Positions 18,301 through 57,913 of a DNA stretch of 64,000 bases are shown here, piece after piece. The stretch is from Leuctra nigra. Its lineage: Eukaryota; Arthropoda; Insecta; Plecoptera; Leuctridae. A program made the translations under genes and the position numbers. The stretch is taken from NCBI GenBank assembly GCA_934045905.1, contig OW203764.1, positions 32,343,629-32,407,628 of the forward strand, given 5' to 3'. Numbering within the stretch: the first letter of the stretch is position 1; the number at the start of each line of letters is the position of its first letter. The notes beneath the pieces are model-generated. The model saw only the letters and a program-made list of their open reading frames with translations, did not search any database and was not told the origin of the DNA.

Positions 18301-21300
18301 AAATGCTTTGTTTTCTATAAAATTAGTACTTAGATCCAGTCGAAGATGACTTGATGATTAATGCGAAATGATGGCAGAATTGGGATTTCAGACATACAGT
18401 TTGCCCCGCAGGGAGATTTTTCATTTTACTCCCTACTAAAACGAATTTGGGACACTGAAGGCCACGAGTTACATTAAGATTGATTAAAATTATTAAATAT
18501 AAAATGTATTTTATTTAATTTGAAAACCCATAAAAAACCCTTAAAAATATGGGTTCGGGTTCAGGTTCGGGTTCACAAATATTATTTATAAAGGTTAAGG
18601 TTCGGGTTCGGGTTCAGACAAAAATGTAATACGGGTTCGGGTTCGGGTTCAGGTTCACAAAAAATACGGGTTTTTTCGGGTTACGGGTTCGGGTTCAGGT
18701 TCGGGTTCGATCCCCTGCACATCACATCAGTAAAGTAGTTACAGACTTAAATTTACATTTTATGAGTTTTAAATCGGTATCTGATGAGTTTTATCGAAAA
18801 TTACCAACTTCATGGCAACTTTGATCTATTATTCAATTGTTACAGAGTTTATAGATAGGAATGTTGCAATGAAAATAAGTAATGATGTAGTAAGGGTCGG
18901 TTTTTGTACCTCTTGCTAAAGTTCTTGATAGTTAGCTAACGGATAATGTTAGCAAGCACCTAATTTTACATTGATTTCATCCTCTAGCTAGCACTAGTAA
19001 GAATTTGAAAGACGTTTGCTAACGCTATCAAGAACATTATCCGGTAGCTAACTTTAGCTAAGTTATCTTTTATTGAGTAGATTGTGTTCAGTTGGAGTTT
19101 TGTGCGTATCCGTGCTCGCTCATCAACGCGTTACATTGAGCGTTTTCCTAGTAAATAACATGAATAACAAGTACAAACAATTTTATGAAAATGAGACATG
19201 CCATTTTTATTCTGAAATGGTCCACTGACGTTCAAAAGTATCAGCTCTCCTGCCTCTGTGACACTAACGTCACCCTCTCTTGCAGACCGCCGTCAGCCAC
19301 ATCGCCTCTCACGGGTCGCAGTCGATGCTGGAGGCGCTGCTGCAACTGTCTGGGGTCGACGTCAACAAGCCCGACAACGAGGGTAACACTCCTCTGCACT
19401 TCGCGGCCCAGGCAGGTGAGCGGGCCACAGACTATGCTTCACATTCATAGTTGATTTAGTTCCGACAAAATAATTCAAACCGTGACGCTAGAAATAGTTT
19501 TGAAAAGCGCGTAGTAATGCACAAGCTAACTCTGCATCTGTTACTTCCTCGGATGCTGTGAACTTGATCCTTGTTCCAGGTCATGCAGATGTTGTGAACT
19601 TGATCCTTGTTCCAGGTCATGCAGATGTTGTGAACTTGATCCTTGTTCCAGGTCACGCAGATGTTGTGAACTTGATCCTTGTTCCAGGTCATGCAGATGT
19701 TGTGAACTTGATCCTTGTTGTCATTCAGATGTTGTGAACTTAATCCTTGTTCCAGGTCATGCAGACGTTGTTAACTGTTCCAGGGGTTAAATGTTCCAGG
19801 GCATGCAGATGTTGTGAACTTGATCCTTGTTCCTGGCCACGCAGATGTTGTGAACTTGATCCTTGTTCCAGGTCACGCAGATGTTGTGAACTTGATCCTG
19901 AGCCACTGCTCCGAGGTCGACGTGGACGCTAGGAACCTCCTGGGCTTCACACCGCTCATGAAAGCCGCTCTTCAAGGTCGAACGCGGTGCGCCAAGCTGC
20001 TCATCAGTGCCGGTGAGTTACAATGTCATGACGTCATCATACACCTTCACATGTTAAAGGACCAGTGAACCCAAAAAACAAAATTTTACTATCGTTCATT
20101 TTCGGGGATTAAACACATTGACGCAGTGTTGGAACATCTAGCCTAACGCGTATGGTCTTGAAATAATACATAATTGAATGACCTTGCGACAAGTGGCGAG
20201 TCAGTATTACAGTGTTACATCGATTTTCATCTTCAAATATTCGGTGTGAGCAAACTAAGTGCAACCCAGGATTAATTTTATGATGAAATAACAAACAAAT
20301 ATTCCTCTTTCTAACCATATTTTATTCAAAATTATAGCGCTTATCGTTTACCTGCAATTAATAAATTATCTTATTAAGCTCCACTTTATATTTTACCAGC
20401 TGGTACTTTTGAGTGTAAATATCGCGTTTTGTTATGATTTCTGCATACCCGCAACCTCTTGACCCCGGCTGAGCTCGGGAATTAGTTTCGCCATTCCTCT
20501 CCGCAACCCAAATTCGAGGGATTTAAACTCAAATGAATTTACGGTCGAAATGAGATCATTATTGAAGGCATTTAAACATATTTTTTGAATGTCAGTGACG
20601 CAACATTTGTATTTTAAATGTACACTCAATGAATCAAAAAATGGCACACAAAGTTATTCTTTTCAAACACAATTTTCAAGTTTATAAACATTTTTTTTAA
20701 TTTTCTGCTTATCACAAATCAAATACTAATGATAGTGACCAATAACGCTAGTTATTAGAGTCAGGTACGTTTAGAAAAAATATGGTGGCCAGATTAACAG
20801 GGGCTTACGGACAAGAGTGTGACCTTGGATCTAAATGCCGCTATACAATAACTCGGGCTGCGTGATAGCGATCGTGAAGACAGAACGCCCAACAGCCTGT
20901 ATTTAATGTAGATTTCGATCCAAAGCGGACTGACTGAACCCACAAACATGCAAAATTACATTAAAATCATGCAATTATTCGTAGATTACTACCTTCATAA
21001 CACCCCCAGGAATAATATAAAATTAAATACTATTTTTAAAGTCTACAGAGGGTAGTTCGGTTATTATACCTACTGATAGAATCATAATTACACCAATTAT
21101 AGTCGAGGCAGGAAGATATTACAGAGAATTTATTAGCAAAATAATTTTCTCGGAATTAATTATCTGGGTGGTTTTGGATTCTAAAAAGAACATATTAAGA
21201 GACTAGACCTACACTTCCTCCACCCCACCATAACGAAAGAGCGAACTTCAAGATTTTCGCGGTCTCGAAATGGCCAAAAACCAACGATAATCATAAGCAG

Positions 21301-24300
21301 GAAGCGCAGCGCTTCTGAAAAGCTGTGTGAGGGAAGTTGGAACTATTCATTACGCACCTATATAATCTAAATACGTATAAATATTTATAAAAAAATATGT
21401 ACGGATATATTAAAAAAAATATATATATAAATATTATCTTTTTAATGAATATTAAGTTATTTAATGCGTTTTCTATACGTAGAACGTATAAAGATGGCGC
21501 CACAGTTTGTACTGCCGATGGACTTATTTGAGATTCAAATATTAACATTGGCAGCATTGGAAGATGACGCCCTTCCTTGTGGGTGGGTGTGGGAGGGGGG
21601 GAGTGTCTCTTAATCACCTACAGTTGTTCTGAAAAAACAAATTGCTTGTGTAAAGGGGATTAGAGAATCACTGTATTTTATTTCTTGGACGACTCAATGC
21701 TACTTGCATGCTTCACCGGTACACATCACGAAACAAAATAAGCCAAGATTAAATATGTTGTTATTATTTAATATTTACACACTTTATACAGTCTCGGTTC
21801 CTTCACATCAAGAAATAAACTAATAATTAATAATCCTTATATGATTGCCTCTTCTAAAAGCATTTCTCTTCACTAGTACATTTCCATTCACCTTGACAAC
21901 AACACCCTCTTTCGCCCAAATGACAACACTGTACTCCTGAACACCGAGCCGGCCATGTTGGCACTCGCTCGTCACCGATATACCCATCCCACTCACTCTC
22001 ATCAGATTCACAATACGTTCCTCCCCATGCCGTCTCACTTCCACTCGCAGTCCGTCGCCTGTCACTGCGACCTTGTTGCCGACGTCACTGCACACAGTCA
22101 CATTGTCCCCGCTGACGGTGACGTTGGTGCCAGTCACTCGCGCGGCGTTGCCGACTATCACGGCGTTGTTCCCGCGGACGACGGCGTCGTTGCCGTGGAT
22201 CAGAGCGTCGTCGCCGGTGACGTGCGCGTTGTTGGTGCGCACGCGTGCATTGTTGCCGGTGACGTGAGTCGTGTTGCGGCCCCTGATGATTGTGTTGTCG
22301 CCGACGACGGTGGAGTAGTCGCCGTACACGAGGGAGAAGTCGCCGCGGACATGGGCGTGGTCGCCGATGACTGTGTTTCCGTCGCCGGTGATGTTTGCGT
22401 TGTTGCCGTTGACGGTGAGGTCGCTGACGGACAGCTGGAGGTCGTTTCCGGTCAGCTCTGGCGTGTTCGTAGACGAAACTGAGAGAAAAAAGAGAGAAGA
22501 AAGCTGTCATGAATCTTCAAGGAACACGGACAAGAAACCGACTTTAGCTTTAATATTTCACTTCTCCCAACGCATGTATATCGGATTTTGCGTGATAGCT
22601 CGACCGAAGCAGACTTTACACATATTTAATTCACTCCAATGGTCTCTGTACACTAATATGAACAGAGCACGAGAGTCTCCTCGCTAGTAGAGGATTGCAG
22701 GAACAGGAGAAATAGGAAGGAATCTAAATCCCTAAAATCTATGAATTCAAAATGTTTTTCATAGTATTCATGTGGCGTCCACGCCTTGTACAGTTTGGCG
22801 TGGCAGCCATTTTTATGACACACATCAGAATTATTATCAATCTGTATTCTGGTATTTCGTCGTCGAGTGCAAATGAGGCTGCAGAAAAACTCGAATTGTC
22901 ATAAGGACCCCTCAGAACCAGAGTGGTGTAAGTCACATTTTCTCAAACTGAGATAATTGGACTTAAAGTTATTTGGAAAATGTTAATTGTGGGATGGTTT
23001 TTAGATGTTTGGAAGGGAATAATATTATTTAAAATAGAGTGATTTAACTAAAACAATAAATCTTCAAATCAAAATCTTTCAATATTGACCAGGGTCAGAG
23101 GTCAAAAATAGATACACCACTCTGGCATGGAAGTAAAATGACATTAGGGAAAGTTAAACAGTGAAACATAAAAACTTACACCAAAATGGCACTCAACTTT
23201 CGTTAGGTTAGTGTTGTGAGTGTTGTCATACTGTTGTGCTTGTCTTTTATCAAGCAAAATAAGTTTGTATGACTCATAATTTATGCTGTTAATCAATAAA
23301 TATATCAATAAGATATGAATAACTAACCCAAATCTAAATAATTTCGAAGAAAAGTACCTGAAAATTTAAAAAAAAATGTTGACTTATCACCACTCTGGTT
23401 CTGGAATAATTGCTAATAAAATCTGCATGCCTGGAGATAACTGCTCCCTAGCGGCCAAATTGAAAGTTATGACTTAGGCCACTCTGGCAAAGACAGAATA
23501 GAACATGACGATTATATTTCCGTGCCTAACACAAAATGTCAATTTTTTGACTTACTACACCACTCTGGTTCTGAGGGGTCCTCACTCATGAAATATAATA
23601 AAATACCACCGATTTACCTCAAGTAAAATCTGACTGACAGTGACATTTATAATCATTCAAGTCAACGAATGGCCGCCCCACAACTCAAAGTAAAGAGAAT
23701 GTTTTACATTTTTATGATGGTAAAATAACTCACTTACCTGTTGCACCTTGTACAACCCTGCCTGTCATCACGTGACAAAGCCACAGGGCTGCCAACGCGG
23801 TGACAACACTTGTCCGAGAACACATTGCGAGTGACGGACTTTCAATACAAACACAGCATTCAGAAGGTTACTGGGAAATTACATCAGAGGTTCGTTAGGT
23901 TATCGGTTAAAAAGACACAAACAAGTTGATTCAGCGTGGTCAAGAGCAAGAGCAAAGGTGTCACTTGCGAAATGTCCAATTCGATAGGCAAGAAACCAAA
24001 TCGCGATGCAAATTCCACCGCTCACCACCTGCTAACGTATTCTCCAAAACCTGTGTTTGTTTTTAAAGATATTATTAGGAACATTACGTTTAGTATCAAT
24101 GAATATTATAAAAAACTCAGTTTATTTTCACGCGTCATAAATGTTGTTACAAAACTAATTTAAAATATCTTGCTGTTGATGCATGACGAAATATTAAACG
24201 AATATTACTTGATTTATTTGTAATATTTTATCATAGGCGAAGCGACTTTGTATATAGTTTTTCACTAAACTGTGAATGTCTTTATTACTCACACTTCGAG

Positions 24301-28416: not shown

Positions 28417-28464
28417 CAGTTGCTGGAAGTGCCCAGGCTGTATTCACAGAGTGGCAGACAAAAG

Positions 28465-28470
28465 AATAAA
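28465..28470 (+). promoter_or_regulatory. Polyadenylation signal of the ankyrin gene
   Basis: AATAAA 48 bases after the TAG stop. It is the first canonical hexamer downstream. Confidence 0.65.
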
Positions 28471-30702: not shown

Positions 30703-30823
30703 GGGCCATGTTTTTCAATACTCTGCTAAATTTTAAACAGCTTGACTATTGCCATGGCAACAACCAATGAAATTCCTTGAACCACAGATTAAACTTAATT
30801 ACTGGTTTTAGCAGAGTACTACC
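30703..30823. mobile_element. Harbinger-like MITE, degenerate copy
   Basis: Starts GGGCCATGTTTTTCAATACT after TAA and ends near AGCAGAGTACTACC before TTA, matching the 6337/32007 family (shared CATGGCAACAACCAATG-like centre). Confidence 0.6.
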
Positions 30824-31078: not shown

Positions 31079-31282
31079 TCACGCCGACTTCTGGTTCCTT
31101 CTGTTCCTCTTTCCCTTGATGTTGGACAGCGTCTCGTAGGCCTGTTGGATCGCCATGAATCTGTCTTGCGCAGCATCCCTGAGCTCCGGGTCCTTGACCT
31201 TATCGGGATGGAACTCTCTGGACAGAGCGCGCCACTTGCTGGTGATGTCGCTCTGTGACGCGCTGCCCGGCAGCCCCAGCAC
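31079..31282 (-). CDS. DNAJC22: DNAJC22 exon 5 (J domain)
   Basis: Acceptor TTTGCTTGACTCAG, phase 0, then 67 codons and TGA. It holds the whole J domain including EFHPDKVKDPELRDAAQDRF and the AYETLSNIKGKR end of helix IV. It keeps 13 bases (around CTGCCGGGCAGCG) that every upstream array copy lacks. Confidence 0.93.
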   Translation of the reverse strand: MLGLPGSASQSDITSKWRALSREFHPDKVKDPELRDAAQDRFMAIQQAYETLSNIKGKRNRRNQKSA

Positions 31283-43200: not shown

Positions 43201-46200
43201 CCCCACGGGCACCAGGACCATGAGGAACTTCCAGTCGACGCCCCACACCTCCTCCTCCCCCGGCCCTGCATGCAATGACATGACCTACCCAGCGCGCACC
43301 CCACGGGCACCAGGACCATGAGGAACTTCCAGTCGACGCCCCACACCTCCTCCTCCCCCGGCCCTGCATGCAATGACATGACCTACCCAGCGCGCACCCC
43401 ACGGGCACGAGGACCATGAGGAACTTCCAGTCGACGCCCCACACCTCCTCCTCCCCCGGCCCTGCATGCAATGACGTGACCTACCCAGCGCGCACCCCAC
43501 GGGCACGAGGACCATGAGGAACTTCCAGTCGACGCCCCACACCTCCTCCTCCCCCGGCCCTGCATGCAATGACGTGACCTACCCAGCGCGCACCCCACGG
43601 GCACCAGGACCATGAGGAACTACCAGTCGACGCCCCACACCTCCTCCTCCCCCGGCCCTGCATGCAATGACGTGACCTACCCAGCGCGCACCCCACGGGC
43701 ACCAGGACCATGAGGAACTTCCAGTCGACGCCCCACACCTCCTCCTCCCCCGGCCCTGCATGCAATGACGTGACCTACCCAGCGCGCACCCCACGGGCAC
43801 CAGGACCATGAGGAACTTCCAGTCGACGCCCCACACCTCCTCCTCCCCCGGCCCTGCATGGAATGGCGTGACCTACCCAGCGCGCACCCCACGGGCACGA
43901 GGACCATGAGGAACTTCCAGTCGACGCTCCACACCTCCTCCTCCCCCGGCCCTGCATGCAATGGCGTGACCTACCCAGCGCGCACCCCACGGGCACCAGG
44001 ACCATGAGGAACTTCCAGTCGACGCCCCACACCTCCTCCTCCCCCAGCCCTGCATGCAATGACATGACCTACCCAGCGCGCACCCCACGGGCACCAGGAC
44101 CATGAGGAACTTCCAGTCGACGCTCCACACCTCCTCCTTCCCGGCCCTGCATGCAATGGCGTGACCTACCCAGCGCGCACCCCACGGGCACCAGGACCAT
44201 GAGGAACTTCCAGTCGACGCCCCACACCTCCTCCTCCCCCGGCCGTGCATGCAATGACATGACCTACCCAGCGCGCACCCCACGGGCACCAGGACCATGA
44301 GGAACTTCCAGTCGACGCCCCACACCTCCTCCTCCCCCGGCCCTGCATGCAATGACATGACCTACCCAGCGCGCACCCCACGGGCACGAGGACCATGAGG
44401 AACTTCCAGTCGACGCCCCACACCTCCTCCTCCCCCGGCCCTGCATGCAATGACGTGACCTACCCAGCGCGCACCCCACGGGCACGAGGACCATGAGGAA
44501 CTTCCAGTCGACGCCCCACACCTCCTCCTCCCCCGGCCCTGCATGCAATGACGTGACCTACCCAGCGCGCACCCCACGGGCACCAGGACCATGAGGAACT
44601 ACCAGTCGACGCCCCACACCTCCTCCTCCCCCGGCCCTGCATGCAATGACGTGACCTACCCAGCGCGCACCCCACGGGCACCAGGACCATGAGGAACTTC
44701 CAGTCGACGCCCCACACCTCCTCCTCCCCCGGCCCTGCATGCAATGACGTGAGGCGTGACCTACCCAGCGCGCACCCCACGGGCACCAGGACCATGAGGA
44801 ACTTCCAGTCGACGCCCCACACCTCCTCCTCCCCCGGCCCTGCATGGAATGGCGTGACCTACCCAGCGCGCACCCCACGGGCACGAGGACCATGAGGAAC
44901 TTCCAGTCGACGCCCCACACCTCCTCCTCCCCCGGCCCTGCATGCAATGGCGTGACCTACCCAGCGCGCACCCCACGGGCACCAGGACCATGAGGAACTT
45001 CCAGTCGACGCCCCACACCTCCTCCTCCCCCGGCCCTGCATGCAATGACATGACCTACCCAGCGCGCACCCCACGGGCACCAGGACCATGAGGAACTTCC
45101 AGTCGACGCCCCACACCTCCTCCTCCCCCGGCCCAGCATGCAATGACGTGACCTACCCAGCGCGCACCCCACGGGCACCAGGACCATGAGGAACTTCCAG
45201 TCGACGCCCCACACCTCCTCCTCCCCCGGCCCTGCATGCAATGACATGACCTACCCAGCGCGCACCCCACGGGCACCAGGACCATGAGGAACTTCCAGTC
45301 GACGCCCCACACCTCCTCCTCCGGGATCGCCATCTGGACCACCGAGGCCCACAAGTAGGAGATGATCACTTGGCCGCAGAAGCGCACAGACGAGAACGGC
45401 GGCTGAAATCACCAGAGACAATGAATAGTACCAAGAAGAGAAATGGTTACGACTTCACGAGAAACAACGCATGTCAGTTCTTCGCTACACAATCCATGTT
45501 CGTGGTTTTGGCCCTGAAAAGGACAGCATTGAGGAACTACGAACTATAGGAATCCTGCTCGTGACGTCACAGTGGTAGAAAAATGGAGGCTGCTCTGGTA
45601 GGAGAAATGTGTCAAAGCTATAAATAAGAGCTATAAATCATATTTATCAGATGAATATTTAACTTGAACATGTGTAAGAATAAATATTGCGTATTATTAT
45701 TAGCTTGTACTTACTTAAATATCTTTCTTTCACAAGTAATCACTCTAAATATGAGATTTGGATTGCCACTGTCAGATTTGTTTATTCCCTATACTTTTGT
45801 ATAGGTTACTATGGCAACCTTTTCTCACGCAGGATGCCTATTCAACTTCACATGGACCGAAAACCAAATCTTTGGTCTGAAATAATTTCAGAGCATTGTT
45901 ATCCTTATGGCAGTGAAATTATTTCGTTTTCGTTATGGAATAGACAGCCAGGTGAATAATGAAGCTTTCCACAGCCACAAAACATCTCAAGAATTGAGCG
46001 ATGAACCGACGATATCAATTTATCATTCAACAGAGTCAACTCAAGTTGTCCTAAAATATGCCCAATAAAACGTTGATCGTAAAACGTTGATCGTAAAACG
46101 TTGATCGTATTGACAGGTTCACATGCGAATTTGGCATTCTGATTTGACAATACAACTAAATATACATTAATATTCTTTAGGTACACTCACACCAATAAAA

Positions 46201-48381
46201 ATCGGTACCTACTCGAAAAGAAAATGTTTGTCTGCTAGTAGGTGGGCTCCTATTTCATTGATACAAGGATTGATTGTATAAAGGCCAATGCACAATTGAC
46301 GCGAACGGACGACGCGGACGGACGACGGAGACGGATACAATGTTAAAGTCGTCGTCCGTCCGCGTCCGATTGTGAACAGCCAGAGTGAATATGTCATCAT
46401 ACCTAAACATTGTATCCGTCTCCGTCGTCCGTCCGCGTCGTCCGTCTGCGTCAATTGTGCATCGGTCTTCATCCTTTTCATTTCGAGTACCAATTTTTAT
46501 TGGTTTGAGTGTACCTACTTCATTCTATCGTATTTTAATATTTGTATTTTCGTCATTTTGTATTTTGTATTTTGTATTTTTGTAATATTTGTATTTTTTA
46601 TATTTGTTACTCGCAATTTTCTTTTCTAGGCTTTGTTTGGAGGATAAAGTACCATTAGTCTTTTGACACACTTTCCTAAAATACATTCTCTCTATCTGAT
46701 CATTGCACTTCATAACAAAGATGATGCAAGATATTGCTTCTCTTACTTTTTGACTCATCTGGAGGAAATGAACCAAATGAGCGAATCCATGAGCCATTTC
46801 TTCCTCTATCTTTTACATTATTTAATTTTTATTATATTTAGAATTGTTTCCCGATAGGTCTTTTACAAATTCCCGTGTTAAATTTCCTGTAATTGACTGC
46901 TTTAACTTTTTAATATAAAATCCTGTCATTAAGGATGTAATATTCAAAGATTTAACATCTTGATCTCTCAACAACTATTAGTGCAGGTTCAAGTGTAGAA
47001 AAAATGCTTTCCGCTCGATTGGAGTGCCGAAATAGATTTTTTCATAATTATCGATTGTTTACATAATTCTTAATATTACCTGACGTGCCTTCAATTTTTT
47101 GGGTGGCCATCTTGGAAAATATGGCGGAAAACGTTCATTTTACAAATTATTTAATTGTTGGTAGAGTGAAGGTTGAAAAATTATGAAATAATTCACTTAA
47201 ACTAACTCAAATATGGGGACTTGAAAAAAAAATACGCCGTGAACGAATTTTATTTTTTCATTGTTGGAATTGACCAATCACGTTTCTGTGTTTTTTTGCT
47301 CTCAATTTATTATGAAACGCGTAGACTTAGACTAAAATATGTAGAATTAAAATTTGTAGACAATTTCATTTTGAACAATATGCGTTTTAAAAAAAATTAT
47401 GTTTTTTTAGAAAAAAGATTACATTTTTTTTAAATTTTTTTAAATTTTTTGTTTACGGCGTATTTTTTTTTCAAGTCACTATATTTGAGTTAGTTTTAGT
47501 GAATTATTTCATAATTTTTCAATATTTCCTCTACCATCAATTAAATAATTTGTAAAATTTACGTTTTTCGTTCGTTTTCCGCCATATTTTCCAAGATGGC
47601 CACCAAAAAAATTGAAGGCACGTCAGGTAATATTAAGAATGATGTAAACAATCGATAATTATGAAAAAATCTATTTCGGCACTCCAATCGAGCGGAATTA
47701 CATTTGCTCCCCTACTATATCTACTGGCCAAGAGAATAACCCCGAGTGTGCAGGTAATTAATTACTCTTTCTAACACAGGTCAGGTCTGGTCTACTCACT
47801 CCAAAGTTTTAACAACATTCCTAAGTGATCTGCATCCTCTTTACATAGAAACACTCTTATCAATCAAATAATTGCCGTCGAATCATGCAAAACCATTACC
47901 AGTATAGTCGGCAAGCAGCATCGAACCCAGAACTTCACTCCGCTCATACTTACTAGTTTATTGTTTTTCTTATCATTCAATCGCCAATATACGACGCAAG
48001 TCTACTTCCACACATTAAATTCACTGCCAATATAAAGATAAAAACGTAATTAACTCTTGAACAATCTCGACTATTGACATTGTCTCTGTGACACATTTCC
48101 TCGTCTAACGCTACTTCTGACGTCACACCATACCGTACCTTCTCATGCGCCTTGAGCATCTCGATGTGCTTCTTCAGGAACTTCTCGTCGTCATTGGCGT
48201 CAGCGACATACTCTGGGATGTGGAAGATGTCCCTCAGCCACCCGCACCCGACATAACCTCCAAGCGTGCACCACCAGAGGAACGCCTGTGCATCGCGTCC
48301 TAGGTAGAGATGATGGAGTCCGAAGACGCCGCCGACGAGCCACAGCAAGTACGTCAAGAACATGCTCTTCTTCTCGGCCAT
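31079..48381 (-). CDS. DNAJC22: DNAJC22 / Wurst orthologue, 5 exons, 355 aa, complete
   Basis: Exons 48381-48139, 45402-45255, 39444-39240, 34907-34640 and 31282-31079 join in phases 0, 1, 2 and 0 to 1068 bases with stop. The length is close to human DNAJC22 (341 aa). Residues 1-45 (MAEKKSMFLTYLLWLVGGVF, GLHHLYLGRDAQAFLWWCTLGG) are a TM2-like region; more hydrophobic segments follow in exons 2-4, giving a multi-pass membrane protein. The C-terminus (about residues 289-355) is a J domain starting VLGLPGSASQSDITSKW, with HPD at about 313-315, so it can stimulate Hsp70. Drosophila Wurst is needed for clathrin-mediated endocytosis in airway clearance. Five of its eight exon borders carry tandem arrays. 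ATG 48381 is the first in frame and matches the family start. Confidence 0.93.
31283..31724 (-). repeat. Exon-border tandem array, 132-bp unit (DNAJC22 exon 5 head)
   Basis: Three extra copies of intron end plus exon head, with acceptors spaced exactly 132 bases apart. Each ends after the codons for SREFHP and switches back to intron, so the HPD aspartate is missing. All lack the same 13 bases found in the true exon, so splicing to them would shift the frame. The frame through the array itself stays open, because 132 is a multiple of three. Confidence 0.92.
31725..32326. other. DNAJC22 intron 4 segment with one MITE
   Basis: AT-rich intron. Apart from the Harbinger-like MITE at 32007-32138, nothing is recognised. 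Confidence 0.4.
32007..32138. mobile_element. Harbinger-like MITE, 132 bp
   Basis: Ends GGGCCGAGTTTCTAAATG and CATTGAAAAACTGGCCC, 3-bp duplication TAA (32004-32006, 32139-32141). Same family as 6337-6477, including the CATTGGTTGTTG centre. Confidence 0.8.
32327..34404 (+). mobile_element. Helitron-like element, longest copy, 2078 bp
   Basis: Left end TTGAGCGAGCGAAGCGAGCG after A; right end ...CGCTCATCAACGCGTTACTCAGAGCG then TTTTCCTAG followed by T. A CGCTC/GAGCG stem about 10 bases before a CTAG end and insertion between A and T fit Helitrons; the TT start instead of TC does not. Inside are several GATCGATCTGAAATTTTGC-type segments and a 76-codon frame (33639-33869) resembling the N-terminal part of Helitron Rep/helicase proteins. 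It is non-autonomous. Confidence 0.72.
33639..33869 (+). pseudogene. Truncated Helitron helicase-like N-terminal fragment
   Basis: 76 residues, very basic and helical: MPKNGKTSARMKAIKAKKRL, then SKRLKQN, ASRSKETPDQTAARRYSNNQ and RNTRSRAAGIAD. Such Arg/Ala-rich 'ETPxQ...AAR' stretches open many animal Helitron replicase-helicase proteins, as I recall. No Rep or helicase motifs follow before the element ends, so this is a leftover of the mother gene. Confidence 0.45.
34640..34907 (-). CDS. DNAJC22: DNAJC22 exon 4
   Basis: Acceptor TGTTTCTGTCCTAG; one base completes Arg, then 89 codons ending NAFK before donor GTACAA. Encodes RIAVLVTCALLYSSLWCSYL (a membrane segment), a lumenal or cytosolic loop with EEIPVHQAFHHFFTSPWW, and TWRQIIDLSDPHGE just before the J domain. 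Confidence 0.92.
34908..37158 (-). repeat. Exon-border tandem array, 140-bp unit (DNAJC22 exon 4 head)
   Basis: Sixteen extra copies at exact 140-bp spacing (acceptors from 35047 to 37147). Each carries a good TTTCTGTCCTAG acceptor, the exon head to GACAGCGAG, then GAGATCCCCGTGCAT before about 35 bases of intron. All lack the same 6 bases (GGCGAG) present in the true exon. Copies differ by scattered point changes (GCGTCTA or GCGGCTA; ACGCGGGA or ACGAGGGA). Confidence 0.96.
37159..37796. other. DNAJC22 intron 3 middle, poly-C tract
   Basis: Contains a C run (about 37420-37440) inside text resembling the poly-G hAT family (GAGTTTCTACGCGATTTTGACG also occurs near 5970), so it is likely a degraded element with unclear ends. 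Confidence 0.4.
37797..39239 (-). repeat. Exon-border tandem array, 131-bp unit (DNAJC22 exon 3 tail)
   Basis: Eleven extra copies spaced 131 bases apart (37797 to 39107), each with the exon tail from ATGACATTCGCGTCGTCCTA through CCCAAGAAGAAGAAGTCGC to a donor GGTACTGACC (GTAACC in the outermost copy). The intron part is itself a GAGTGGTGAGT short repeat. 131 is not a multiple of three. Confidence 0.96.
39240..39444 (-). CDS. DNAJC22: DNAJC22 exon 3
   Basis: Two bases complete Gly after TTCTTGTACAG; 67 codons and two bases end before donor GTACTG. Encodes VWTVGNIGREKGTIWWALGA and AYLSFPLYYYLSDETVAFTL (membrane segments) then the basic RRTPKKKKSLT loop. Confidence 0.92.
39445..39690 (-). repeat. 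Exon-border tandem array, about 76-bp unit (DNAJC22 exon 3 head)
   Basis: Three extra copies of CTTGTACAG acceptor plus exon head (GTGTGTGGACAGTGGGCAAC), each followed by a G/C run of variable length. Thus exon 3 has arrays at both of its borders with different units. Confidence 0.9.
39691..39950. other. DNAJC22 intron 2 segment
   Basis: Intron between the exon 3 head array and the 223-bp repeat. Nothing is recognised. Confidence 0.4.
39951..40173. repeat. 223-bp direct repeat, left copy
   Basis: Identical, as far as read, to 42172-42394; begins TATGTGAATAGACTAATTG and ends AACAAGTGGTTTAGT. The two copies exactly bracket the TA-flanked element 40176-42171. Confidence 0.9.
40176..42171. mobile_element. 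TA-flanked element with TTCATGG ends, 1996 bp
   Basis: Short inverted ends TTCATGGTTTTCACG and CGTGAAAACCATGAA, TA on both sides (40174-40175, 42172-42173). The TA fits a Tc1/mariner-type insertion but no transposase is present. A reversed Helitron-like element (40488-41367) is nested in it. Confidence 0.65.
40488..41367 (-). mobile_element. Helitron-like element, 880 bp, reverse orientation
   Basis: The CTAG end lies at 40488-40491 and the TTGAGCGAGCGAAGCGAG start at 41367 on the minus strand, inserted between A and T. Closely related to 32327 but with the middle deleted; contains a 22-base A run and several copies of AAATTTCAGATCGATCGGT-like text. Confidence 0.75.
42172..42394. repeat. 223-bp direct repeat, right copy
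   Basis: Partner of 39951-40173. The lack of visible differences suggests a recent duplication or gene conversion. Confidence 0.9.
42395..42894. other. DNAJC22 intron 2 segment, nothing recognised
   Basis: AT-rich intron between the direct repeat and the exon 2 tail array. Confidence 0.4.
42895..45254 (-). repeat. Exon-border tandem array, 98-bp unit (DNAJC22 exon 2 tail)
   Basis: About 24 extra copies of a 98-bp unit running from intron CATTGCATGCAG into GAGGAGGTGTGGGGCGTCGA and on to the GCGCGCTGG|GTAGGT donor. One unit near 44750 carries a small extra insertion (GTGAGGC). Each unit holds both a CATGCAG acceptor-like site and an intact donor, so each looks like a potential cassette exon of about 75 bp. 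The true exon has GATCCCGGAGGAGG where copies have GGCCGGGGGAGGAGG. 98 is not a multiple of three. Confidence 0.97.
45255..45402 (-). CDS. DNAJC22: DNAJC22 exon 2
   Basis: Acceptor GGTGATTTCAG, phase 0; PPFSSVRFCGQVIISYLWAS, a membrane segment, then IPEEEVWGVDWKFLMVLVPV and the donor GTAGGT one base into Gly. Matches the 'PIRFAAQVIVG' region of vertebrate DNAJC22. Confidence 0.92.
46180..46515. mobile_element. TA-flanked MITE with GGTACACTCA ends, 336 bp
   Basis: Ends GGTACACTCACACCAATAAA and TTGGTTTGAGTGTACC with TA on both sides. A second inner palindrome is built on GACGACGGAGACGGATACAA and its complement. No coding capacity. Confidence 0.75.
47009..47696. mobile_element. Fold-back element with about 240-bp arms
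   Basis: Ends TTCCGCTCGATTGGAGTGCC and GGCACTCCAATCGAGCGGAA; arms contain ACCTGACGTGCCTTCAATTT and ATGGCGGAAAACG-type text in inverted order; 200-bp AT-rich centre. No clear target duplication. Confidence 0.85.
48139..48381 (-). CDS. DNAJC22: DNAJC22 exon 1
   Basis: ATG at 48381 opens 81 codons ending KAHEK before donor GTACGG. Contains the TM2-like pair of membrane segments with GLHHLYLGRDAQ. An in-frame GTG further up is not a plausible start. Confidence 0.92.
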
Positions 48382-49865: not shown

Positions 49866-50632
49866 TGACCTGCAATCTTGTGTCTGCGCTGCGTCTTGCG
49901 TCTTGTATCGTGCGTCTTTGTGCCTTTGTGTCTTACGTCTTGCGTCTTTGTGTTACGTCTTGCGTTGCGTCTTGCGTCTTGCGTCTTGCGTCTTGTGTTT
50001 GTGTCTTGCATCTTGCGTCTTTGTGTCTTACGTGTTTGTGTTACGTCTTGCGTTTTAGTGTCTTGCGTTGCGTCTTGTGTTTGTGTCTTACGGTTTGCGT
50101 CTTTGTGTTACGTCTTGCGTTGCGTCTTGCTTCTAGTGTCTTGTATCTTGTGTTCTGCGCATTGCGTCTAGTGTCTTGCGTTGCGTCTTATGTCTTGCGT
50201 TGTGTCTATAGTGTCTTGTGTCTTGTGTCTTGTGTCTTGTGTCTTGTGTCTTGTGTCTTGAGTCTTGTGTTCTGCGCCTTGCGTCTAGTGTCTTGCGTTG
50301 CGTCTTGTGTCTAGCGTCTTGCGTCTTGCTTCTAGTGTCTTATGTATCTTGTGTTCTGCGCCTTGCGTCTAGTGTCTTGCGTTGCGTCTTGCTTCTAGTG
50401 TCTTGTATCTTGTGTTCTGCGCATTGCGTCTAATGTCTTGCGTTGCGTCTTATGTCTTGCGTTGTGTCTATAGTGTCTTGTGTCTTGTGTCTTGTGTCTT
50501 GTGTCTTGAGTCTTGTGTTCTGCGCCTTGCGTCTAGTGTCTTGCGTTGCGTCTTATGTCTTGCGTTGTGTCACGAGTGTCTTGTGTATTGTGTCTTGTGT
50601 CTTGTGTTCTGCGCCTTGCGTCTGTCTTGTGT
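49866..50632. repeat. TGTCTTGCG minisatellite abutting the S28 stop codon
   Basis: About 770 bp of 7-bp-based units (TGCGTCT, TGTGTCT) with longer higher-order blocks (GTTCTGCGCCTTGCGTCTAG repeats several times). It begins directly after the TAA of the S28 gene, so it occupies the expected 3' UTR. The long frames through it are repeat artefacts. Confidence 0.95.
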
Positions 50633-50736
50633 TTATATCCAGGAGCCGATGAGGTCGCGGACTTGCAGGCGGGCGGCTGTCAGCTGAGGAGAGTCGTTGG
50701 CGTTCGTCGCGTAGAGGAAGGCGATGTGGGAAGATT
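50633..50736 (-). CDS. S28 peptidase exon 7 (catalytic His)
   Basis: Acceptor AATTTGTGCAG; two bases complete Glu, then SSHIAFLYATNANDSPQLTA, ARLQVRDLIGSWI and TAA. The His in SSH aligns with the S28 catalytic His, and DSPQLTxAR is a family landmark. Confidence 0.9.
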
Positions 50737-53700
50737 CTGCACAAATTCATGTAGTTTATACCCGGGTTATTGCATATTTTTTTTTTTTTATAATTTGAAT
50801 TTTTCGATTTTTAATTGTTTAATATTTTTATTTAAATTAAATAATAATTTATATTTTTAATTTATTTATAGCATCCAAATGATATATTATATATATAAAT
50901 GAAAAACAAGTGATGATTGTCGTATCGTAATTTTATGGTCTGAAAAACGAAAACATTGACCCCTGCGAAGTAGGCAACTAATGTTACACGCATGCATTTG
51001 CGTTGCCTAACAAGTCAGGCGTCAGAACTTCAGTTCCAGCTGTTTGTCTTCCAATGAAGTCCTCAAATGCAAACTTATTTACTGTGTTTATTTCCTGTCA
51101 TGGGAGCAACAATAATTAAATTAAATTAGTGAAAAATATAAGAAATTGCAAAAAGAAATTGCAAAAATCACACATAATTAAGAATAAAAAACCTAATACC
51201 CACAAATCAGCTACATAAAGCGTGTTAGAAATAGAATATATAAATGTGATAACTTGATAAGCTTGTAGGGTGACATTCAAACGTTCGCAGCCAAATCCCC
51301 ATGTTGGTTTAAGGGGAATCGGTCTGCGAACTAATGAAAGTGGCTGTATCACAGATATTATGAAAACACCCGGCCCTTCTTATTCCGAAGCGGAGTTAGC
51401 TTGGGTTAGCTCGCAGTGACATAAGAAATAACATTGGCCCCCGGGGGTCATTCACGAAACTTTTTGACGGGGTTACCAGGGGCGATAATTTTTCTGGCAA
51501 AGACTTCGTATAAGGGAGAAAAAATGATTTGTATAAAATTCCAGTTTTAACTTTTTTGAAGTGAAATAAAATGGTTGATCCAACTAGATTATGTTTTAAA
51601 ATGTCATTCACGATAGTTCTGGAATGAAATTGGGGTCGTGAAAACTCTCTAGAGTAAAAAATGTTCGATTTTTTAATTCGAAAAAGAGCATATTTACTGT
51701 TCTTATAACCTTCATTTTACTAATGTAAAAATAAGTAAGTTGTTAGAGTGTTTGTCACAGTCAATTTACGTCCCATTTACGAAGTAATTGCCAGAAAAAT
51801 TCTCGCTTACCGGGGGCGGCCAATGTTATTTCTTATGGCAGTACGAGCTAACCCAAGCTAACCCAAGCTAACCCCGCTCCGTGAACAAGAAGGGCCGGGA
51901 GTCTTCACAATATCTTTGGCTGTACCTTCAATGACGATGGCTGTGGCGGACTCTGAGATGTCCTGCTGAACGCCGATGACGCGCCACGGGTCGAACGAGC
52001 CCTGCGTGAACACCACGTCAGTCACGGCCGGGAACAAACCGCCGTAGTTGTCGTTTAACCTCTCCACGGCTGCCTGGATGTAGTCGGCGTCGAAACTGAA
52101 ACGGTCATTCAGTCATTCATCGTATCCTCAATCCTGATGCTCTATGTAACACATTGATGGGCGAGCAGCAGTACTATTGCATGCGAATTAATATGCGTGT
52201 GAAAGTAGCTGCTCTAGAGACATTGAACCATAGAGGTAATGAACAGCATGCGCCACAGGAGCAGTGATAATTTTTAGAATCCTTTGAAATAAATGTGAGA
52301 AATATTTTTAAACAAAAATATTGTTAGTAAAATGTCAATCACTTTTGAAGTTCTTTACAGATTGGACTTAAAATTGTCAGAAGCTCCTAACATGTTGGTC
52401 CCAATGACCATGGGAAATTTTAAGTTGATCGGTCAAACGGTTCCAGTTTCATTTTTAGCCAACCACATGATCTATTTCCAAAAACTATACACGTGACAGC
52501 TCTTATGATAACGTGAAAATTGGAGATCGATTGGTTGAACAGTTTGACGGGCATTGCAGGCAAACACACGGACAGACAGAAAAAAAGCGAAAGATACATA
52601 AGAGCCATGAATTGACGCTAGCTCGCGCATAATACTTGTCTTGGACCTATAATTAGAGTCAAAGAATGAAAGTACAACAACATGTTCTTGAAACAGTTTT
52701 ATGACGACAATGTCTTGCTCGTCACCTCTCTCCGTAGAAGTCCGTGCACATGCGCACAAACGCGGCGCTCGGGAACGCGTCACCGAAGGGCTGCTCCTGG
52801 GACTCCGACGTCTCGAAGTCGGCGAACCACGAGCAGGTCTGATACGTGTAGACCCTCTGTCCCCGGCTGTTGATCGGGCTCTCCCAGGAGGTGTTCCCGT
52901 ACGCCTCCATGTAGGGGGCGTAGGTGATCTCGAAGCAGGTGTCGGGGTCGGGACGGAACACGCGACGGAAGAGGTCGACGAGGCGGTCGAGGGGAGTCGC
53001 GCCGTACACCGGGTTCGTCATCAGCGCGCAGTTGTTCAACACTTGAGCCAGCGACGACGCGGTCTGCACGACGCCGGCGTAGATGTCGGCGAAGGTGGTG
53101 AAGAACGTCATCATGTCCATCATGTTGTCCGGGTCCAAGTCAGTGCAGAGGCTGCAAACACGATTCATCTCAATCAAACATTTAGGTTTGTAATTTTGCC
53201 CATTCGGCGATTATGTACTTATACATAAATGTTAGAAAAAGCTTGTTTCGATATGTTCAAATTTTTGTGTAGACAAATACGTCCAAAATTTTGGTCACTT
53301 GGACTCACCCGAACATCTGTGTGACTGTCTGCGCGCCGCCCGGACCGCGCATGACGGCGTCCAAGTCCGTCACGGCCTCCTTCATGTCGTCGTAGCAGTC
53401 CTGATCGGCCAGCGCCATGACCCTCAACCTCTTGGACTCACCCGAACATCTGTGTGACTGTCTGCGCGCCGCCCGGACCGCGCATGACGGCGTCCAAGTG
53501 CGTCACGGCCTCCTTCATGTCGTCGTAGCAGTCCTGATCGGCCAGCGCCATGACCCTCAACCTCTTGGACTCACCCGAACATCTGTGTGACTGTCTGCGC
53601 GCCACCCGGACCGCGCATGACGGCGTCCAAGTCCGTCACGGCCTCCTTCATGTCGTCGTAGCAGTCCTGATCGGCCAGCGCCATGACCTCGACCTCTTGG

Positions 53701-56700
53701 ACTCACCCGAACATCTGTGTGACTGTCTGCGCGCCGCCCGGACCGCGCATGACGGCGTCCAAGTCCGTCACGGCCTCCTTCATGCCGTCGTAGCAGTCCT
53801 GATCGGCCAGCGCCATGACACGCCCGACCTCTTAGACTCACCCGAACATCTGTGTGACTGTCTGCGCGCCGCCCGGACCGCGCATGACGGCGTCCAAGTC
53901 CGTCACGGCCTCCTTCATGCCGTCGTAGCAGTCCTGATCGGCCAGCGCCATGACCCCGACCTCTTAGACTCACCCGAACATCTGTGTGACTGTCTGCGTG
54001 CCGCCCGGACCGCGCATGACGGCGTCCAAGTCCGTCACGGCCTCCTTCATGTCGTCGTAGCAGTCCTGATCGGCCAGCGCCATGACCCCGACCTCTTAGA
54101 CTCACCCGAACATCTGTGTGACTGTCTGCGCGCCACCCGGACCGCGCATGACGGCGTCCAAGTCCGTCACGGCCTCCTTCATGTCGTCGTAGCAGTCCTG
54201 ATCGGCCAGCGCCATGACACGCCCGACCTCTTGTACTCACCCGAACATCTGTGTGACTGTCTGCGCGCCACCCGGACCGCGCATGACGGCGTCCAAGTCC
54301 GTCACGGCCTCCTTCATGTCGTCGTAGCAGTCCTGATCGGCCAGCGCCATGACACGCCCGACCTCTTGGACTCACCCGAACATCTGTGTGACTGTCTGCG
54401 CGCCGCCCGGACCGCGCATGACGGCGTCCAAGTCCGTCACGGCCTCCTTCATGTCGTCGTAGCAGTCCTGATCGGCCAGCGCCATGACACGCCCGACCTC
54501 TTGGACTCACCCGAACATCTGTGTGACTGTCTGCGCGCCGCCCGGACCGCGCATGACGGCGTCCAAGTCCGTCACGGCCTCCTTCATGTCGTCGTAGCAG
54601 TCCTGATCGGCCAGCGCCATGACACTCCCGACCTCTTGGAAGTATTCTACACGAGGAAACAGCGATTCATGTTAAACATATACAAAAGAAATTGGAAAAG
54701 GAGGAAACTTTGTTGTCCTTTACTTCATTCTTCAAATTAGTTCTGAAAATTTTCCCTTTGCTCAAATACTCGATGTTGAGAGGAATGGGGAATAGGTGAA
54801 TGTTGAGATTATATTTTGTTTATTGAGCGAGCGAAGCGAGCGTCTCCTTTTGACTCTTTTGACACGGACCTCTGCTTTTTTTTTCTTTTAATAGCCGATA
54901 CACAGGTCACAATGTTTCACCCATCGATCTGAAATTTTGCACACATGTACAACCAACCTTCTCTGTTTGCAGACCCAATTTTTTTTAAATCCATTGAATG
55001 TTTAAAATTTAAATAAGCATCTCCTGATGGTAGGTTGAAAAATGACAATGGTCTTCGATAAATCTGATCAAACTCATATTTTGGCTACAGGTCAGAGTTT
55101 TTCTTCTATCGAGTTCAAATTTGGCACACATGTAGAGACAACCTTTTCTGTTTGCATACCGTAAATTTTTGGAAATTCATTATTTGGTTAAAATTTAAAT
55201 AAACATCTCCTGATAGGTTGAAAAATGAAAATGGTCTTCAAGAAATGTGATCAAACTCATATTTTGCATGGTCAGTAAGATCGATAAATGTCTCTTATTT
55301 TACAGATTTTCATCCTAATCAGTTAAGAACGTATGAACTTATTGACATTTTTAATATCTGTCAGATATGAAGTATCGAAATGAATGTTTTCCAGTGCCAG
55401 TTGAATTGAATCTGATTTGCTTTATGTACCAGGGTGCTTAGATGTCATTTTCAAGTTTCGATGAAAAGCATATACTTTTATGTTGATTCATGATTGAGTG
55501 GCTCATATTATTTCAATTCAATATGGATGTATATGTTTTATGTGCGTTGTGTACGCATTTCCGGTTCGAGAATTTGCACGTATCCATGCTCGCTCATCAA
55601 CGCGTTACTCTGAGCGTTTTCCTAGTATACAGAATAGACTCAAAGAGCAATGTGAAATTTTATAATATTTTTTTATATCATATATTTCCCATAATTAATT
55701 TATTAGTTTTCGACATTTTACTCCTCTGCAAAAACAAGCTGTACGTCACACGCCGTGTTCCCTGTGTTAAGGGATGCATAAAACTGGCTCTGGCTTACAT
55801 TATCTATGCGGCCCGACTCGGCGTGTGACGTCAAATTGTGTTTCATGGACAGCTACAATCTACCAAACTGTGTAAATTCGTTCCTTGAAAACTATTCATC
55901 ACAAAACAAAAATAATACCACATCTGTCATCAACAACATCTCAACTTTCATAAAATATGTATTATTCTAAAATCTAAACTTCACTTCACTTCCCTATTGA
56001 TTGATATAAGAAGTAATATCAGCTTGAAGATCCTACCCATGAAGTTGAACCTGGCTAGCAGTGGCGCACTGGCCACGACGGCGGCGTCGATGACGTCTGG
56101 ATACTTGAGTCGCGCCCAGGCGGCGAGGTTGCCGGCGATGGAGCCGCCGAAGACGACCACCTTGGCGTCGGGATGACTGACGCCGATGGCTCGCACGAGG
56201 TGGGCGACGTCGGCCAGGCTCTGCTCGGCAGTCAAGTACTGCAGATTCTCGACACTTGTGTCTCTGTAGAGCAAAGATCATTTCACAACGCAATCTCACG
56301 CGGGGCGAGATTCGAAATATTATGGGATCTTCAAGAGTTATTTTTTGAAGTGTTGAGTAGGGATAAAAATGAATGAGTATAGCGAAATTTGAAACGATTT
56401 GAGAAATGGTAGTAGAACAGACTAACTTATTGATAAGCGAGCATCTCGTGCATATTAATACCTGTAGATGTTGGATAGAATAAATTTTTAAATAATACAA
56501 TCAATTATTGAATAATGTAATACATAATAAGTAGTAGGGCATTACGTAATAAATATAATTACTACATTTCACAACTCTGAATTCCCCAAAATATATTCAT
56601 ACGAGTATGTACCTAAATCATGATTTAAAAAAGAAGAAATCGAAGCATTTTACTTTAGGTACATTTGTTGATCGGACAAGTATAATTGGATGTAAATTCT

Positions 56701-57913
56701 TCAGAAATTGTTGTGAATAACAGAACAACGGTCATCAGAGATGAGTGTGTATTTTCTAAACTATGCGTAATAAGAGAGAAAACTACACGACCGGAATAAA
56801 GTATACGATGCACGAGGTAGTTAGTAACTATCCCAGCATACAGTGTCTCACTCTGTCGGTCGGCTCTCGCCGTAGAACCTCTGCTCCACGAGGAAGATCT
56901 TGGCGTTGAAGAACAGCGCATACTCCGTCATCTGCCCGCCACGCAGCCAATCAGCGTCGGCCGGACCCTCCAGACTGATCATCAGGAAGATGGGGCCTCC
57001 GGGGGAGTAGAACTGCTCGTTCACGAAGTAGCGCTGCAACCAGAGTCATCACATGCATGTCCATTGGCAACCCGCCACGCAGCCAATCAGCGTCGGCCGG
57101 ACCCTCCAGACTGATCATCAGGAAGATGGGGCCTCCGGGGGAGTAGAACTGCTCGTTCACGAAGTAGCGCTGCAACCAGAGTCATCACATACAAGTCCAT
57201 TCGGTTTCCATGGCAACCCGCCACGCAGCCAATCAGCGTCGGCCGGACCCTCCAGGCTGATCATCAGGAAGATGGGGCCTCCGGGGGAGTAGAACTGCTC
57301 GTTCACGAAGTAGCGCTGCAACCAGAGTCATCACATGCAAGTCCATTCGGTTCCCGTGGCAACCGCCATTTCTCAGATTGTAGCCGTGTCGTTGAAACAG
57401 ACAATTTGTTGAGAATGAATATGGCAATCTCATATGACGTCACAGCTGACCAAAATCTAGCTGCTTTCGGTACTAATTTATCATTATTTTATTTATGTTC
57501 AATTTTATTTGATACTATTTCTGTATTTCTGAAAAATTGCTTGGCCCCCAACAAAATTGAAACAAGATTGAGTCTGTTACCATTAGCAACCTTGGTGATG
57601 CAACTACCCTATTGCTATTTGACAATCGTGAGACACTTAAAAAAAAATGAAGCTACGAACAGTTGTATTTTGCAAAAAAGTCGCCCTACAAATTCCCTAC
57701 AAGCTTGTCGCTTCAACATAAATGTTTCTCTACCTGAGGCCAGGTGCGTTCATCTGAGGCATTGAAGTGGTCGAGCTTCTGTTGGATCCAGCTGAGGACC
57801 GGCGCTCTGGCTTGCTGCAGCGGCGCAGGCGCGGGCGCCATCTTGTCTGCAAGCCGAAGACATTGCGCAAGCGCCACACTGACCAGCAGGAAGTAGAAGA
57901 CGACAGTTCCCAT
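50633..57913 (-). CDS. Secreted S28-family serine peptidase (PRSS16 / prolylcarboxypeptidase type), 7 exons, 474 aa
   Basis: Exons 57913-57734, 57033-56852, 56263-56037, 54646-54511, 53151-52726, 52095-51926 and 50736-50633 join in phases 0, 2, 1, 2, 2 and 1 to 1425 bases with TAA. Residues 1-17 are a signal peptide (MGTVVFYFLLVSVALAQ). The family entry motif QQKLDHFNASDERTWPQRYF, then GGPIFLMISLEGPA and VEQRFYGESRPTEDTS, leads to the nucleophile GGSIAG (Ser about 162), Asp in GSFDPW (about 419) and His in SSH (about 444). S28 enzymes are lysosomal or secreted and cut after proline or in dipeptide steps; closest by recall are thymus-specific protease and nematode K12H4.7-type proteins. The usual GGSYxG has Ile for Tyr. 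Length is normal. Two exon borders carry tandem arrays. Confidence 0.92.
50764..51368. other. S28 intron 6 segment
   Basis: AT-rich intron with a T run and (TA)n traces near 50780-50900. No exon. Confidence 0.4.
51369..51899. mobile_element. MITE with CCCGGCCCTTCTT ends, 531 bp
   Basis: Ends CCCGGCCCTTCTT and AAGAAGGGCCGGG; arms include GTTAGCTTGGGTTAGCTCG and AATAACATTGGCC inverted, with an extra AGCTAACCCA duplication in one arm. It lies 26 bases past the donor of exon 6. No target duplication was found. Confidence 0.85.
51926..52095 (-). CDS. S28 peptidase exon 6 (catalytic Asp)
   Basis: Acceptor ACCGTTTCAG; encodes FDADYIQAAVERLNDNYGGL, DVVFTQGSFDPW (catalytic Asp) and AIVIE, ending one base into Glu at donor GTACAG. 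Confidence 0.92.
52130..52600 (-). mobile_element. Decayed Helitron-like element
   Basis: Contains CTATGTAACACATTGATGGGCGAG, broken here as GTAACACATTGATGGGCGAG, related to the terminal region of the Helitron family, and TTGGTCCCAATGACCATG then TTTTAAGTTGATCGGTCAAA, both common in the family. It parallels 6116-6660 but without the nested MITE. Confidence 0.55.
52726..53151 (-). CDS. S28 peptidase exon 5
   Basis: Longest exon, 426 bases; one base completes Gly from exon 4. Encodes LCTDLDPDNMMDMMTFFTTF, then a helical insertion region, DTCFEITYAPYMEAYGNTSW and the family landmark YTYQTCSWFADFETSE. Several Cys positions fit the S28 cap (SKS) domain. Donor GTGACG. Confidence 0.93.
53152..53300. 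other. S28 intron 4, proximal part
   Basis: Unique intron of about 150 bp between exon 5 and the array. Confidence 0.5.
53301..54510 (-). repeat. Exon-border tandem array, about 133-bp unit (S28 exon 4 tail)
   Basis: Nine extra copies (donors between about 53308 and 54373) of exon 4 from GTCATGGCGCTGGCCGATCA through CACACAGATGTTCGG to the GTGAGTC donor, plus only 10-20 bases of intron. Units vary between about 131 and 137 bp around ACACGCCC/ACCCTCAAC junctions. A long open frame runs through on both strands purely because of the repeat. Confidence 0.96.
54511..54646 (-). CDS. S28 peptidase exon 4
   Basis: Acceptor CCTCGTGTAG; two bases complete Glu. Encodes EYFQEVGSVMALADQDCYDD and MRGPGGAQTVTQMFG. 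Only this copy carries the EYFQEVG start, so it is the true exon. Donor GTGAGT at 54510. Confidence 0.9.
54823..55625 (+). mobile_element. Helitron-like element, 803 bp
   Basis: TTGAGCGAGCGAAGCGAGCG start after A at 54823; CATCAACGCGTTACTCTGAGCG then TTTTCCTAG ends at 55625, followed by T. Shares the TTTTGCACACATGTA and GCATGGTCAGTAAGA segments with 32327. No coding capacity. Confidence 0.78.
55741..55832. repeat. Short inverted repeat
   Basis: Arms TACGTCACACGCCG and CGGCGTGTGACGTCA around about 60 bp. Perhaps a tiny MITE; no clean duplication. Confidence 0.5.
56037..56263 (-). CDS. S28 peptidase exon 3 (catalytic Ser)
   Basis: Acceptor TTGCTCTACAG; one base completes Glu. Encodes DTSVENLQYLTAEQSLADVA, VVVFGGSIAGNLAAWARLKY and PDVIDAAVVASAPLLARFNF; donor GTAGGA. 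The Ser of GGSIAG is the nucleophile. Confidence 0.93.
56264..56851. other. S28 intron 2
   Basis: AT-rich intron with no recognised repeat, apart from a short Helitron-tail-like GATAAGCGAGCAT near 56435. Confidence 0.4.
56852..57033 (-). CDS. S28 peptidase exon 2
   Basis: Acceptor CTGGTTGCAG, phase 0; RYFVNEQFYSPGGPIFLMIS, then ADADWLRGGQMTEYALFFNA and KIFLVEQRFYGESRPTE; two bases into Glu before GTGAGA. Only this copy continues past WLRGG into QMTEY. Confidence 0.93.
57034..57330 (-). repeat. Exon-border tandem array, about 143-bp unit (S28 exon 2 head)
   Basis: Two extra copies of the intron end (ATGTGATGACTCTGGTTGCAG as acceptor region) plus the exon head to CTGCGTGGCGGG, after which each copy returns to intron (TTGCCA). 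The frame in each copy is open to that point. Confidence 0.9.
57331..57733. other. S28 intron 1 remainder
   Basis: Unique AT-rich intron; a 119-codon plus-strand frame crosses it but has no domain and overlaps exon 1. Nothing else is seen. Confidence 0.4.
57734..57913 (-). CDS. S28 peptidase exon 1 (signal peptide)
   Basis: ATG 57913 gives signal peptide MGTVVFYFLLVSVALAQ, a linker, then WIQQKLDHFNASDERTWPQ and donor GTAGAG in phase 0. In-frame ATGs further upstream exist but would bury the signal peptide, so this start is preferred. Confidence 0.85.

Follow-up and report, generated by a model that had tools for sequence, protein, structure and literature searches.

Exon borders in the stonefly Leuctra nigra are multiplied in tandem arrays whose units fuse an exon end, splice site included, to the adjoining intron. 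The account that we favor, with a probability of roughly 0.6, is GC-biased tandem duplication in which a duplicated piece of exon persists if it includes a splice site, since the surplus copies are then hidden by splicing. Eight such arrays lie in the window, the whole stretch of 64,000 nucleotides that was analyzed, and the same arrangement recurs at other genes in a random sample of the assembly.

Three genes in the window carry the arrays. The DNAJC22/wurst-like gene on the minus strand (31079-48381) has five exons (48139-48381, 45255-45402, 39240-39444, 34640-34907, and 31079-31282), and its hand-built spliced model gives an open frame of 355 aa with TM2 and DnaJ domains. A peptidase S28 gene on the same strand (50633-57913), presumably PRSS16-like, has seven exons (57734-57913, 56852-57033, 56037-56263, 54511-54646, 52726-53151, 51926-52095, and 50633-50736) and a hand-built model with an open frame of 474 aa. 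GT and AG flank all internal borders of both models, and several of the modeled junctions read AG|GT. The ANKRD33B-like gene on the plus strand (1-28410) is modeled in part, with approximate outer exon ends; it comprises an exon ending at about 394, exons 19286-19415 and 19872-20012, and exons at about 26.33-26.63 kb and 28.10-28.41 kb. The DNAJC22-like protein shares 74% identity with its homologue from Timema, 71% with Gryllus, and 70% each with Ischnura and Blattella, and every organism named among the 120 of 309 matches listed is an insect. The ANKRD33B-like protein is likewise insect-like, with Anabrus as the best match at 52% among the 120 of 628 matches listed. The S28 peptidase reaches at best 40% identity, to molluscs, among 41 matches and carries no lineage signal. 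Amphioxus was considered as the source of the DNA and was ruled out by the insect matches of the DNAJC22-like and ANKRD33B-like proteins. The protein model is uninterrupted at the arrays: when the splice sites adjacent to the exon bodies are used, the length of the DNAJC22-like protein agrees with its insect homologues, and alignment with Timema, Gryllus, Ischnura, and Blattella finds neither inserted nor lost residues at the borders that bear arrays.

Detection with TRF recovered all eight arrays named in the initial annotation, and the spliced models place them, as it had claimed, on splice junctions of these three genes, five on the acceptor side and three on the donor side. Five belong to the DNAJC22-like gene, two to the S28 peptidase gene, and one to the ANKRD33B-like gene. 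The last is an acceptor-side array on the plus strand at 19552-19899 (36 bp x 9.6), with the functional acceptor preceding 19872. All the others are on the minus strand. In the DNAJC22-like gene, acceptor-side arrays are found at exon 5 (31273-31695, 132 bp x 3.2) and exon 4 (34816-37161, 140 bp x 16.8). Exon 3 has a separate array at each end, donor-side at 37796-39329 (131 bp x 11.7) and acceptor-side at 39421-39703 (77 bp x 3.7), and the donor-side array of exon 2 (42887-45322, 98 bp x 24.8) holds 25 intact GT donors. Thus arrays occupy five of the eight internal borders of this gene, which matches the scale first described, and the copy number of up to 24 given there becomes up to 25 donor copies. 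In the S28 peptidase gene, a donor-side array lies at exon 4 (53298-54640, about 132-135 bp x 10), its unit covering about 113-130 of the 136 exon bases without including the acceptor, and an acceptor-side array lies at exon 2 (56935-57347, 146 bp x 3). Across arrays, the exonic part of the unit measures 22-139 nt and the intronic part 7-68 nt, without a constant offset from the junction. The exonic share of the units, for which several exonic lengths were entered by hand from printed sequence, ranges from 29 to 93% (mean 0.71) and exceeds half in 10 of 12 arrays.

Within the window, 8 of 14 arrays with a period of 30 or more straddle one of 25 modeled splice junctions, compared with 0.68 expected under uniform placement, and none of 200,000 placements reached eight. 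The 14 arrays were listed by hand from the TRF output. Rows that overlapped were left aside, as were a 29/86-mer at 59014 and an array built on an 8-mer at 62608, and with these last two the border share becomes 8 of 16. This count rests on the hand-built models, and an automated run with an exon caller based on codon usage scored lower: exon overlap was called for 5 of 10 arrays, against 1.45 expected from a uniform null (reached in 13 of 2000 draws) and 6.2 from a GC-matched null (1879 of 2000). The statement that an exon end is part of every large-unit array does not hold, as neither the 159-bp array at 2280 nor the 183-bp array at 54932 touches a modeled exon. Four further entries lie equally clear of modeled exons, a 262-bp row at 49965 and arrays of 34-41 bp at 17567, 18558, and 25477.

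The wider sample consisted of 28 random 10-kb regions from the first 30 Mb of C1-C10 (the first 28 in order of 60 drawn) in an assembly of 536,196,549 bases and 144 contigs, with the window itself at 32343629-32407628 of C3. Among the 21 arrays with a period of 45 or more, six are clear border arrays and two are probable ones. Four of the clear cases are on the acceptor side, at L004:2452-3848 (154 bp x 9), L007:460-718 (137 bp x 1.9), L022:6541-7350 (160 bp x 5), and L028:2407-3903 (151 bp x 9.9). The other two are donor-side arrays at different exons of one gene, at L007:4599-5509 (151 bp x 6) and L007:3101-3383 (base unit of about 32 bp). The probable arrays are a degenerate one at L023:3777 and one at L023:9230 that is cut by the region end. 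From their translations we take the genes to be ERMP1-like (L007), dehydrogenase-like (L022), and sodium/proton exchanger-like (L028). Because these arrays sit at borders of other genes, the phenomenon is genome-wide, and the view that it is systematic is borne out. The clear ones are found on three further chromosomes (C2, C7, and C9). Six arrays per 280 kb correspond to about 21 per Mb and, scaled to the whole genome, to some 11,500 with a Poisson range of roughly 4,000-25,000, and the six to eight border arrays in the sample stand alongside 72 called exons. A Pfam kinase search of the genome, which returned at least 132 matches from 124 of 731 candidates scored, was of no use for counting decoys. 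Other repeats in the sample include similar non-coding units of 118-120 bp at L010:485-1138 and L011:6161-6925, on different chromosomes, which constitute a dispersed satellite family. Short duplications at L010:4495-4596 and L018:4005-4334 have the common motif GGAGCGACCGCTCC and are perhaps the ends of a mobile element. A 59-bp array with 65 copies, 97% matches, and a GC content of 0.54 extends over L014:1-3855 up to the region end, and no exon was recognized in it.

Whether the splice junction itself attracts the arrays was assessed against base composition. The exon caller was trained on the window genes; a score above 5 was reached in cross-tests by 97-100% of the coding windows of 90 nt and by 2.3% of background windows. 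In 25 random regions, called exons overlapped 6 of 17 arrays. Overlap above random placement is seen against the uniform null, which predicts 1.28 (1 of 2000 draws reached 6), but not against a GC-matched null, which predicts 5.3 (898 of 2000). With five further combinations of period and threshold, 4-6 overlaps were observed against 0.73-1.40 for the uniform null (reached in 0-32 of 2000 draws) and 2.8-5.3 for the GC-matched null (574-1237 of 2000). Array density in the 28 regions (24 arrays, period 30 or more) depends on GC content: non-exonic DNA with less than 50% GC, divided into three bins, had 4.5, 5.0, and 4.3 arrays per 100 kb, whereas at 50% GC or above the figures were 46 and 63 for non-exonic DNA and 46 and 52 where exons overlapped, on only 13 arrays in this GC class. 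When the 13 GC-rich arrays were read by hand, 8 proved to be at exons, with about 7 expected from the exonic share of GC-rich positions. Called exons below 50% GC in the 28 regions held zero arrays among only about 5,200 window positions. The caller prefers GC-rich codons, missed the border arrays at L007:3190 and L023:3777, and probably miscalled a low-complexity array in L009 that is one of the six overlaps, so effects of exons and of GC content are hard to separate. Border arrays show no excess over GC-matched DNA in this small sample. The splice site appears not to be the driver; the junction adds nothing measurable beyond GC in this sample, and the idea that arrays are anchored on splice junctions as such found no support in this comparison. 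A border would in any case be included in most units overlapping an exon, because exons are rich in GC and only modestly longer than a unit.

The copies within the arrays have a consistent anatomy. In the arrays that were read, one copy runs on into the single-copy exon body, and we refer to it as the functional copy and to the others as decoys. Of the 103 junction copies that were detected across 11 arrays, 102 keep GT or AG, counting copies with at most 3 mismatches to the anchor and excluding three false anchors and a single hit at L007:460. The exception is in the 36-bp array, where AG is kept in 7 of 8 detected junction copies and the AG-less copy adjoins the functional acceptor; at least one more copy of this array, outside the detected count, has lost the junction by deletion. 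The unit of this array amounts to 12 codons, and the reading frame of the exon stays open through the last few copies before the acceptor. Intact splice sites in decoys are largely expected anyway because TRF copy similarity is 91-98% in most arrays. In two arrays the decoys collectively differ from the functional copy. In the 31273 array (exon 5), 13 nt of the functional copy are absent from all 3 decoys, and all 16 decoys of the 34816 array (exon 4) diverge from the functional copy at one exonic point, with 6 nt absent from those decoys that were printed; the exon 4 codons that the functional copy retains have counterparts in homologues. In seven arrays, the functional copy departs from the array consensus at 0-1 exonic sites, and variable columns number 42 of 738 in exonic and 26 of 231 in intronic sequence. 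The variable exonic columns in these arrays fall on codon positions 1, 2, and 3 in the numbers 12, 11, and 19, and the changes number 19 synonymous and 22 non-synonymous. The low exonic variation and the consensus-like functional copy hint weakly at constraint, at conversion with the functional copy, or at very recent growth. The signs of concerted evolution within an array that leaves out the boundary copies, a trait of the amphioxus arrays discussed below, are mixed: the deletions common to the decoys in two arrays and an outermost copy that diverges on the intron side speak for it, and the consensus-like functional copy of seven arrays and neighboring copies that are scarcely more alike than all pairs speak against it. 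Copies carry differing variants and copy-specific indels. Microhomology at breakpoints was suggested in two cases only, the S28 exon 4 array and the L007 donor array.

According to the account that we favor, DNA above about 50% GC would duplicate in tandem at about ten times the rate of the AT-rich remainder, as the array densities suggest, and exons supply about half of this GC-rich sequence. A duplication internal to an exon would alter the protein and tend to be lost. A duplication that crosses the border, even by 7-15 nt, would take the splice site along, and the extra copies would then fall within the intron. Splicing would use the donor or acceptor that adjoins the single-copy exon body and would remove the decoys, a preference for the closest site that would be expected from exon definition. 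Hidden in this way, the array could expand and homogenize like an ordinary minisatellite. The duplication step itself we infer. No clearly exon-internal array with a period of 30 or more was found, and one is doubtful, in L009, the sole candidate among the remaining arrays. Its frame is of low complexity, and the array is probably not part of an exon, although it would be exon-internal if coding. Among the 12 border arrays whose exon length is known, no unit lies wholly inside the exon, against 2.83 expected (P = 0.022), but the set had been read beforehand as border arrays, which weakens the test; L007:4599, L007:3101, and both L023 arrays, with exon lengths not fixed, were left out. This restriction to borders, by mostly exonic units whose intronic part can be as short as 7-15 nt, would fit a filter against exon-internal duplications.

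Amplification directed by the junction is an alternative in which transcription, R-loops, or splicing intermediates cause breakage or slippage at borders and the splice site seeds the array. The share of arrays at borders, 8 of 14 in the window and 6-8 of 21 in the random regions, would follow from it, as would the independent arrays at both ends of exon 3 of the DNAJC22-like gene. We nevertheless consider it unlikely, as there is no excess over the GC-matched null, GC-rich non-exonic DNA is similarly dense in arrays, and the extents of the units bear no fixed relation to the junction. Selection could instead maintain the arrays if many donors or acceptors raised splicing efficiency or made isoforms; for example, the 36-bp array could add 12-residue ankyrin-repeat blocks, which agrees with the open frame of its last few copies. 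The preserved splice sites and the lower exonic variation point the same way, but the sites are largely expected from copy similarity, two arrays have deletions throughout their decoys (13 nt in one case), and copy numbers look arbitrary, all of which makes selection improbable.

An origin of introns through the arrays has also been weighed. Tandem duplication of exon pieces bearing AGGT would make new introns, a route that the amphioxus globin authors proposed from the mirages discussed below, and the arrays would be its footprint. Several junctions here do read AG|GT. However, an intron is already present at each array examined and no new one was found; comparison with the four insect proteins revealed no intron or exon boundary made by duplication at the array-bearing borders of the DNAJC22-like gene, where residues are neither extra nor missing. 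As the cause of the arrays, intron gain is very improbable, and it could rather be a later consequence of them. Finally, the arrays might be artifacts, single-copy borders that were falsely expanded or misassembled. The window does contain a 200-N gap at about 15.7 kb, and one amphioxus draft assembly of such a locus is described as aberrant (PMC3087553). Set against this are the clear border arrays on C2, C7, and C9, the copy-specific indels and differing variants, and the data behind the assembly, for which the genome report gives 174 scaffolds and 536,298,261 bp (ipLeuNigr2.1) from 32-fold HiFi coverage of 12-20 kb fragments (PMC10280035). Since the border arrays in the window measure at most about 2.4 kb, reads from such fragments should span them, and we find an artifact hardly credible.

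The arrays closely resemble the "mirages" of amphioxus, minisatellite-like units over an intron-exon boundary that are described for Adh3, the globins BflGb6 and BflGb9, TnC, and PGBD5 (PMC3087553, PMC3902484). In all eight named window arrays the unit likewise spans such a boundary, and together with the splice signals kept in the detected copies this upholds the resemblance that had been pointed out. Amphioxus units are also acceptor- or donor-side, measure 150-160 bp in the globins, and occur in many copies with intact AG or GT; copy number differs between two haplotypes of one globin gene, Adh3 is somatically unstable, and the mechanism is termed unclear in the text available from these sources (PMC3087553, PMC3902484). 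In contrast, Leuctra nigra is an insect with up to 25 copies and five of eight borders affected in one gene, its border arrays make up 6-8 of 21 arrays in a random genome sample, and the association is traced to GC content and not to the junction. Among the titles and abstract openings listed from the open-licence PMC literature, no report of border arrays in an insect or stonefly was found, in keeping with the earlier suggestion that the phenomenon would be new for another lineage. Mirage-type minisatellites are already known; what is new is the stonefly lineage, the scale, and the GC-based account. A looser parallel exists in human segmental duplications, where internal tandem minisatellites at exon-intron boundaries can change splicing (PMC2812944). 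Those units are about 30 bp, belong to recent paralogues, lie in half of the cases inside coding exons, and are kept or spliced out (PMC2812944), whereas in Leuctra nigra mostly 77-160 bp units occupy borders of conserved genes. Tandem genomic duplication in a coding gene has also been tied to intron origin (PMC4974935); Leuctra nigra differs in multiplying existing borders, with no new intron seen.

The amphioxus papers describe mirages in a few genes (PMC3087553, PMC3902484), and the stonefly permits a genome-scale test and makes the choice between a duplication bias and a splice-linked mechanism a testable question. The arrays bear on intron evolution, on annotation errors, as decoys resemble exon duplications, and on how the spliceosome chooses one among up to 25 near-identical sites. 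Tentatively, and at slightly less than an even bet, we propose that Leuctra nigra harbors on the order of ten thousand border minisatellites hidden by splicing, which would arise from ongoing genome-wide tandem duplication on GC-rich or transcribed exons. Splicing would make exons into seeds of arrays and thereby open a route to rapid allelic diversity as well as to new isoforms and introns, with an independent origin in insects and cephalochordates.

Several further features of the window deserve mention. A tRNA scan of the window found none. The assembly gap at about 15700-16214 consists of 200 N beside a run of about 100 TTC units and is thus located at a microsatellite. A heptamer-based (TGCGTCT) minisatellite at 49890-50623 begins right after the stop codon of the S28 peptidase gene. 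Similar translations at about 17.1-17.3, 32.4-32.6, and 41.2-41.5 kb are probably copies of one dispersed repeat. Between exons of the ANKRD33B-like gene, on the minus strand at 21823-22506, an open frame of 228 aa has regular short repeats, including in-frame 21-bp repeats at 22160 and 22297. This frame from a stream insect matches the Pfam family LbR_Ice_bind, a grass antifreeze beta roll, above the cut-off (E = 1.1e-9).
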